Positions 27,548 through 29,949 of a stretch of DNA of 64,000 nt are shown here, one piece after another. Origin of the DNA: Allomuricauda sp. GTDB lineage: Bacteria; Bacteroidota; Bacteroidia; Flavobacteriales; Flavobacteriaceae. The first letter of the stretch is position 1. Every line of letters begins with the position of its first letter. Under the pieces are notes generated by a model. That model saw nothing but the letters and a program-made list of their open reading frames with translations. It was not told where the DNA came from and did not search any database. Location of the stretch: contig NZ_PABT01000023.1 of assembly GCF_002699205.1 (NCBI RefSeq), positions 62,001 through 126,000 of the forward strand. The letters run 5' to 3'. A program made the position numbers and the translations under genes.

Positions 27548-27853
27548 TTGTTGTTTGCATATATGGGCGAACTTGTTGAGATTGTGGATTCTTTAGAGAA
27601 TAAGGTGAGCAAGCTGCTGCACAAAATGGAGCTGTTGCACCAAGCCAATGCCAAGTTGAAGAAGGAATTGGAACTTCTGAAGGAAGAAAACGAACTTAAA
27701 CAGAATGCACTAAAAGAATGGGAGGAAAAATATGACTCCCTAAAAATGGCAAACACAATACTGGGTAGTAATACTAGTAAAACAGAAGCAAAGCTCAAGA
27801 TAAATACATTGATTCGCGAAATTGACGTTTGTATTGCCAAATTAGCGGATTGA
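27548..27853 (+). CDS. Small coiled-coil protein (ZapB-like position and composition)
   Basis: LEIVDSLENKVSKLLHKMELLHQANAKLKKELELLKEENELKQ-type heptads; overlaps zapA. Confidence 0.65.
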   Translation: MLFAYMGELVEIVDSLENKVSKLLHKMELLHQANAKLKKELELLKEENELKQNALKEWEEKYDSLKMANTILGSNTSKTEAKLKINTLIREIDVCIAKLAD

Positions 27854-27867
27854 TCGGTACCGAAATT

Positions 27868-28161
27868 ATGGACGAGAAGCTCAAAATAAAGCTTTCCATT
27901 GCAGATAGGGTTTATCCGTTGACGATTGATCCAAAGCAGGAGGAAGGGTTGCGCAAAGCGGCCAAGAACATAGAAAATCTGGCAAAAAAGTTTGAGCAAA
28001 ACTATGCCGTTCGGGATAAGCAGGATGTGTTGGCCATGTGTGCCTTACAATTTGCTTCCAAGATTGAGCAAGGTGGAATAGAACGTTCAGAAAATGCAGA
28101 GGCCGCCATGCAGCGCCTTAGGGCATTGGACGAATTGGTCCATTCCAAATTGGGGGAATAA
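27868..28161 (+). CDS. zapA: Cell division protein ZapA
   Basis: MDEKLKIKLSIADRVYPLTIDPKQEEGLRKAAKNIENLAKKFEQNYAVRDKQDVLAMCALQFASK; start taken at the MDEKLK Met inside the longer ORF. Confidence 0.92.
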   Translation: MDEKLKIKLSIADRVYPLTIDPKQEEGLRKAAKNIENLAKKFEQNYAVRDKQDVLAMCALQFASKIEQGGIERSENAEAAMQRLRALDELVHSKLGE

Positions 28162-28187
28162 GTTCTTTTAAATAAAATATTGTTACT

Positions 28188-28359
28188 GCCCACATTGGTA
28201 ATTAATTTTTGACAAACTCAACACTATTATTATTAGAAAGGGTGAGTTTAGATTGTAAAAGCAGGCCCTACCTGTATAGGGATCCTTGATCAGTCTGTTA
28301 GCCCTAAACCTGTAATTTGGAGTTTGTACAAAACTTCGGCCGATGTGGGCTTTTTTTTT
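28188..28359 (+). ncRNA. Putative 6S RNA (6S-Flavo-like)
   Basis: 11-bp closing stem GCCCACAUUGG (28188-28198) with CCGAUGUGGGC (28340-28350, one U.G), followed by nine T; second stem ACAAACTC (28212-28219)/GAGTTTGT (28320-28327); apical CCCTA-CCTGTA..TAGGG hairpin; located directly after zapA, a conserved genomic neighbour of 6S RNA in other bacteria; no plausible ORF. Confidence 0.75.
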
Positions 28360-28377: not shown

Positions 28378-29949
28378 ATGGATAATATCATAGTAATTGT
28401 TGTAGCAGCTGTTGTGGGGCTGGCAATAGGATTCGCAATTGCCAAGATGATGGAGAAGGGCAAAGCATCCAAGACTATTGCCAACGCAAAGAGAGAAGCG
28501 GCAAATATCATTAAGGAAGCGAAGAAAGAAGGGGAAAGTATAAAGAAAGATAAGATTTTCCAGGCCAAAGAAAAGTTTTTGGAACTGAAAGCGGAACATG
28601 AGAAGGTCATTATCAATAAGGACAAAAAAATTGGTGAGGCCGAAAAGAGAACAAGGGACAAGGAATCCCAAGTAAGCAGTGAACTGGCCAAGAACAAAAA
28701 ACTGAACGAACAGCTACAGGAAAAAATAAAAGAGGTCGCCTACAAGAGTGAAATCCTCGAGAAAAAACAATCCGAAGTAGAGAAACTCCATAAAAGTCAA
28801 GTGCAGCAATTGGAGGTCATTTCTGGCCTTTCTGCCGAGGATGCCAAAGCACAATTGTTGGAATCTTTAAAGGAAACCGCTAAAAGTGATGCCATGGCCT
28901 ACCTTCAAAATACTATGGAGGAAGCAAAACTTACTGCACAGCAAGAGGCCCGTAAAATTGTGATTAATACCATCCAGCGAATAGGGACCGAAGAAGCTGT
29001 GGAGAACTGTGTATCCGTTTTCAATCTGGAGTCTGATGATGTAAAAGGCCGTATAATTGGCCGTGAGGGAAGAAACATCCGTGCCTTGGAATCTGCCACC
29101 GGAGTGGAGATCATTGTGGACGATACCCCGGAGGCCATCATATTGTCTTGCTTTGATTCGGTAAGAAGGGAAGTTGCCCGATTGTCCTTGCACAGATTGG
29201 TCACCGATGGAAGAATTCACCCTGCCCGTATCGAAGAGGTGGTGAAGAAGACCGAAAAGCAGATCAACGAGGAAATAGCCGAAATTGGAAAACGAACAGT
29301 AATTGACCTGGGGATCCATGGATTGCACCCGGAATTGATAAAAGCTGTGGGCCGAATGAAATATCGTTCCTCTTACGGGCAAAATTTATTGCAGCATTCA
29401 AGGGAAGTTGCAAAACTTTGCGGGGTAATGGCAGCGGAATTGGGGCTGAACCCAAAATTGGCCAAACGGGCCGGATTGCTCCATGATATTGGAAAGGTAC
29501 CGATGGCCGAAGTTGAGGTCGAGACACCACACGCTATTCTGGGAATGCAATGGGCCCAGAAATACGGAGAAAAAGATGAGGTGTGCAATGCGATCGGAGC
29601 CCACCACGATGAAATTGAAATGACCACATTGATTTCCCCCATAGTGCAGGTGTGTGACGCCATTAGCGGGGCGCGTCCCGGGGCAAGAAGACAAGTACTG
29701 GATTCCTATATCCAACGTTTGAAGGATTTGGAGGACATTGCCTTTGGTTTCAATGGGGTACAGAAAGCCTATGCCATCCAAGCCGGTAGGGAACTCCGTG
29801 TGATCGTGGAAAGTGAAAAAGTGAACGATGACAAGGCGGCTGAACTGTCTTTTGAAATCTCGCAAAAAATTCAGACGGATATGACATATCCCGGTCAGGT
29901 AAAGGTCACCGTCATTCGTGAGACCCGATCAGTGAACGTGGCCAAATAA
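28378..29949 (+). CDS. rny: Ribonuclease Y
   Basis: N-terminal TM, long coiled coil, KH ([45 protein letters not shown]), HD domain ([25 protein letters not shown]). Confidence 0.98.

Follow-up and report, generated by a model that had tools for sequence, protein, structure and literature searches.

A 6S RNA gene between zapA and rny in Allomuricauda sp., with a covarying outer stem and a boxA-like sequence upstream

The 6S RNA gene and its native fold

The 6S-Flavo RNA family (RF01685) was described in 2010 by Weinberg et al. (PMC2864571), and within the phylum 6S RNA was detected among the known RNAs of Flavobacterium psychrophilum, where it is transcribed (PMC9723704), and, together with its product RNAs, in Bacteroides thetaiotaomicron (PMC7366714). 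Two further Rfam families are of interest here, the general 6S RNA (RF00013) and RF01693 (Bacteroidales-1), which Rfam describes, as a suggestion, as 6S-Bacteroidales RNA. The locus that we compare with them lies in a window of 64,000 nt from Allomuricauda sp. (Flavobacteriaceae), for which a first-pass annotation had read the sequence between zapA and rny as a 6S RNA with two mutually exclusive pairings. The locus is arranged as follows:

27868..28161, + strand: zapA (97 aa), preceding 6S on the same strand, as it does in relatives
28162..28174, + strand: sequence GTTCTTTTAAATA resembling boxA, immediately behind the zapA stop codon, at the place where a matrix derived from rRNA operons has its best site in most genera
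28188..28359, + strand: probable 6S RNA of some 165-172 nt, drawn from the outer stem through the last U of the U-run, by its matches to RF01685 and RF00013 and its fold
28378..29949, + strand: rny (ribonuclease Y, 523 aa), following 6S on the same strand, as it does in relatives

A short ORF at 27548-27853, directly upstream of zapA, looks like a coiled-coil protein by eye and could encode a ZapB-like partner.

When the whole window was scanned with Rfam, 6S-Flavo was the sole family above threshold: positions 28216-28325 of the + strand match model positions 1-108 with 102.9 bits (E = 5.1e-17; gathering score, 85 bits), so that the covariance-model search proposed in the first-pass annotation came out in favour of its reading. 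At permissive thresholds two more 6S models align here below their own cut-offs, namely RF00013, end to end, at 28184-28355 (31.3 bits against a cut-off of 46.4; E = 1e-4), and RF01693, over its full length, at 28194-28356 (26.1 bits against 60; E = 0.018), and the extents of both matches agree with the predicted fold of the window RNA. As had been noted before, no convincing ORF is present: none fits the zapA-rny intergenic region, and the minus-strand ORFs listed there overlap the flanking genes by chance.

The own genome carries one copy of 6S-Flavo, and the same holds for the family at large, with a match once per genome in 395 of the 399 Flavobacteriaceae genomes sampled and in all genera (203/203). 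When one genome was drawn per genus, 148 of 151 family members had a match, including every one of the 127 of good quality. Outside the family the model fades, leaving weak matches in a related family of the same order (f2). Gene order is stable too: 153 of 160 loci have zapA, 6S and rny in succession on one strand. Six of the seven exceptions have no match to one of the two flanking genes, at least one of them (L074) owing to a contig cut, and the seventh (L047) is a weak 6S-Flavo match that we regard as false.

The fold of the window RNA is as follows, all features being on the + strand:

28188..28199, + strand: outer closing stem, 5' strand, pairing with 28339-28350; absent from the RF01685 model
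28207..28219, + strand: inner closing stem (P1), 5' strand, including segment a (AAACUC); supported by covariation
28220..28238, + strand: central bubble, 5' side, unpaired in the consensus; putative product-RNA template by analogy with known 6S RNAs (PMC8876501)
28239..28305, + strand: apical stem domain of four short helices, with compensatory changes in 15 of 18 pairs
28243..28249, + strand: UGAGUUU (segment b), a conserved internal loop, proposed in the first-pass annotation as partner of 28214-28220
28306..28319, + strand: central bubble, 3' side, starting with AAACYU (28306-28311); complementary to the P1 3' strand, candidate release hairpin
28320..28333, + strand: P1, 3' strand, segment c GAGUUUGU, with one bulged A; supported by covariation
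28339..28350, + strand: outer closing stem, 3' strand; likely intrinsic terminator together with the U-run after it
28351..28359, + strand: T9 tract, terminator-like; a T run is conserved here in the alignments of relatives

The outer stem, U9 tract and inner stem reported earlier were all found in place. The outer stem joins GCCCACATTGG (28188-28198) to CCGATGTGGGC (28340-28350) by 10 Watson-Crick pairs and one G-U pair and spans 163 nt, and within P1 ACAAACTC (28212-28219) pairs with GAGTTTGT (28320-28327). The whole folds at -57.4 kcal/mol, against -36.0 +/- 4.0 for shuffled sequences (z = -5.4), and none of 200 shuffles did as well. Minimum-energy folds of the relatives contain the outer stem in 148/148 genera and the inner stem in 139/148.

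Covariation was assessed on an alignment of 59 diverse genera. In the native structure 96.2% of cells are paired and 34 of 43 pairs have changes on both sides, values that were reached by none of 500 shuffles, while sliding the partners lowers pairing to 31-48%. The outer stem is among the best-supported helices (compensatory changes in 11 of 12 pairs, 97.4% of cells paired), and P1 follows with compensatory changes in 8 of 13 pairs and 93.9% paired; the absence of covariation in the closing stem had been named beforehand as grounds for giving up the 6S assignment. The outer stem, although it lies outside the 108-nt Rfam model, is thus genuine, and since it encloses the whole RNA, with a T-run right behind it, stem and U-run together are likely the terminator. 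Taken together, fold and helix covariation give the rod of a 6S RNA, with a closing stem, a large central bubble and an apical stem within the usual 160-200 nt or so.

Near the start of the outer stem, an A at -3 is kept in 148/148 genera and a C at -2 in 95%; the sequence TTACTGCC (28183-28190) is conserved beyond the needs of pairing and may be a start or processing site.

The RF01685 match above gathering, the covariation of the closing stem, the conserved zapA-6S-rny order and the sub-threshold matches to other 6S models firmly support the identity of the RNA, as first proposed. Judged from its sequence, the zapA-rny intergenic region is an ordinary, intact 6S RNA gene, and almost certainly the single one of this flavobacterium, a member of Rfam 6S-Flavo and a rod-like mimic of an open promoter.

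A boxA-like element upstream

In bacteria boxA sits in two places, the rRNA leader and the 16S-23S spacer. The 13 nt that follow the zapA stop codon resemble it, and in most genera GTTCTTTAAAATA or a close variant is found upstream of 6S, mostly 24-28 nt ahead of the outer stem (the place was examined in loci L001-L160). Among the complete relatives examined, elements like GTTCATTRACATATTG occur in the rRNA leaders, and GTTCATTGACATATTG in most 16S-23S spacers; the GTTCWTTNAMATA core of the rRNA-operon boxA, the NusB-S10 site, is common to the block upstream of 6S and to the leaders and spacers of the family. The likeness also emerges from an independent matrix, built from rRNA sites alone and used to seek the best site in an 800-nt stretch per locus: in 115 of 148 genera that site lay at -45 to -15 relative to the 6S outer stem, where position alone predicts 5.8 such genera. 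The 6S version differs from rRNA boxA in that it usually does without the CATATTG end.

The window site itself is a looser match, scoring 8.5 where most rRNA sites score 14.6-21.5. In the own genome the boxA-like pattern occurs 15 times, compared with 4 for the reversed pattern, so that the strength of the case lies in conservation and not in the single site. Most of the other occurrences fall within genes or on the strand opposite to a gene, and we set them aside as chance; their surroundings contained no RNA or tRNA genes. A separate boxA-like sequence of this genome, GTTCTTTGACATA at locus L231 (G000:C16), is apparently intergenic and lies about 355 nt upstream of an ORF that resembles RNase E/G (named by eye).

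We tentatively propose that the 6S gene of the Flavobacteriaceae is preceded by a boxA-type site for Nus factors, at which the antitermination complex that also serves rRNA might make transcription processive or chaperone the long-range folding of the RNA. In that case transcription of the precursor would begin before 28162, within zapA or in front of it, and the precursor would later be trimmed. It is also quite conceivable that 28162-28174 is a promoter or an RNA-processing signal for 6S rather than a boxA: (i) the distance from the block to the outer stem is rather constant, as it would be for a promoter; (ii) boxes of the TAnnTTTG type stand, by eye, at a comparable place upstream of Bacteroidales 6S genes; and (iii) the block is absent upstream of 6S in the related family f2. 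The block, however, does not fit TAnnTTTG, the consensus of the flavobacterial primary promoter box (PMC9723704), and it does match an element that the rRNA operons of the same family carry twice, in the leader and in the 16S-23S spacer; both points argue against this second reading. We found no paper in the open-access literature that joins boxA and 6S RNA in this sense. Should the boxA-like element prove real, Nus antitermination in Bacteroidota would act on 6S as well as on rRNA and would couple the supply of 6S to the apparatus of ribosome production, so that two global controls of transcription would be connected in a way that experiments can test.

Proposed release from RNA polymerase and the alternative pairing

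The RNA forms a long rod, made of the outer closing and likely terminator stem, the inner closing stem, the central bubble and the apical domain, that mimics an open promoter. By analogy with other bacteria, it would in stationary phase occupy the RNA polymerase carrying the primary sigma factor. When nucleotides return, the polymerase would copy a short product RNA off the 5' side of the bubble and thereby open the inner closing stem. The 3' strand of that stem, now free, would find a new partner close by, most plausibly on the 3' side of the bubble, and the enzyme would be released.

What the freed strand could pair with was followed by folding with the 5' strand of P1 blocked. In 89 of 148 genera the 3' strand then takes AAACYU, on the 3' side of the bubble, as its partner, and 130 of 148 form either this pairing or a hairpin of the strand with its own flank. 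The 3'-bubble hairpin forms in 60% of relatives, mildly above the 41% obtained with the bubble shuffled, and its complementarity is conserved, with no covariation between the strands. It resembles a hairpin described for E. coli 6S (PMC8876501), and these observations favour, if weakly, a pairing between the freed 3' strand and the 3' bubble over the second fold of the first-pass annotation as the candidate for release.

The hairpin with the own 3' flank has 8 bp in the window and is preferred there; it was set aside as a general release fold, being formed in only 38-42 of 148 genera. A pyrimidine at 28334, kept in 133/148 genera, may reflect this flank hairpin. For a bubble-collapse helix of the B. 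subtilis type there was no excess over shuffles worth claiming.

The second fold pairs AAACTCA (28214-28220) with TGAGTTT (28243-28249), and had been thought to be a possible release conformation. The complementarity is real, perfect over 7 nt in the window; its five-pair core, ACUCA/UGAGU, is available in 137 of 148 genera, and the two segments are strongly conserved. Folded alone, the 5' half has this hairpin as its optimum in 89 of 148 genera; the 5'-half fold of the window RNA does not contain it. That it is a functional, selected conformation, whether a release form or a folding intermediate, is nevertheless unlikely, for the following reasons. (i) The pairing does not covary in the 59-genus alignment: one pair of seven is changed on both sides, and 85.2% of cells are paired as against 85.1% in shuffles. 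(ii) Among 186 sequences UGAGU is altered in many ways, to UAAGU, UCCGU, UGUAU, UGAUG, UGAAU, UGAUU, UGCGU and CAAAU, while ACUCA stays unchanged; a few rows of this comparison are alignment shifts, and the pairing is clearly broken in at least eight genera. (iii) The L149 lineage did alter both strands together (ACUUA/UAAGU), but UAAGU also arises without a change in ACUCA, so that the double change may be coincidence, and the native partner changed there too; in L151, where the first strand changed, the native partner alone followed. (iv) Forcing the pairing costs 9.7 kcal/mol in the window RNA and 7.1 on average across relatives. (v) In characterised 6S RNAs the product RNA hybridises during release to exactly this 5' strand (PMC8876501), and with the strand so covered the pairing is unlikely to serve as the release fold.

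Covariation, lineage counts and energy thus give no support to the alternative pairing as the release fold. Of the two exclusive folds, the complementarity holds, whereas the second fold is probably not a working switch; it is best seen as chance or sequence-conserved complementarity, formed at most transiently during RNA synthesis.

That the sequence instead acts in cis, as a leader or attenuator for rny or as a 3' element of zapA, to which its position directly upstream of rny on the same strand and its terminator-like end ahead of the rny start might point, is highly improbable given the match to a trans-acting family, the 6S-type fold whose terminator stem closes the whole RNA, the detection in F. 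psychrophilum of 6S among the known RNAs, and the Bacteroidales relatives, with neither zapA nor rny detected within the loci examined.

Comparison with other 6S RNAs

The gene is typical of a known family, and the new detail that we add is modest: covariation support for the outer stem, a survey of gene order, evidence against the alternative pairing, and the element resembling boxA. These data confirm and complete the 6S RNA of a large bacterial family. They support a full-length model of about 165 nt, with the outer stem as its likely terminator, where the Rfam model covers the inner 108 nt, and they connect the general 6S model with the flavobacterial and Bacteroidales ones.

The closest relative is 6S-Flavo itself (RF01685; PMC2864571), from the same phylum, with which the window RNA shares the sequence and structure of the inner 108 nt. 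They differ in extent: the RF01685 model pairs the apical stems only, so that the inner closing stem of the window RNA falls partly in the model's unpaired ends and the outer stem outside it altogether.

AAACUCA and GGAGUUU of the window RNA recur in RF01693, as does an outer stem with a T-run at its end; unlike at the window locus, neither zapA nor rny was detected near the RF01693 examples. A pattern scan for Bacteroidales 6S gave three true examples among many chance matches. At L248, L251 and L260 boxes of the TAnnTTTG type lie, by eye, close upstream of the Bacteroidales 6S, and no zapA or rny was detected in those loci. The 6S RNA of family f2 (L045 and L046, the same places as L240 and L239) matches both RF01685 and RF01693 below cut-off and bridges the flavobacterial and the Bacteroidales 6S RNAs.

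Finally, 6S/SsrS (RF00013), as found in E. coli and B. subtilis, has the same closing stem, central bubble and apical stem at a similar length. The window RNA differs from it in having little sequence identity with it and in being followed by rny. The gene of E. coli 6S adjoins zapA and is in that respect placed as the gene of the window is.
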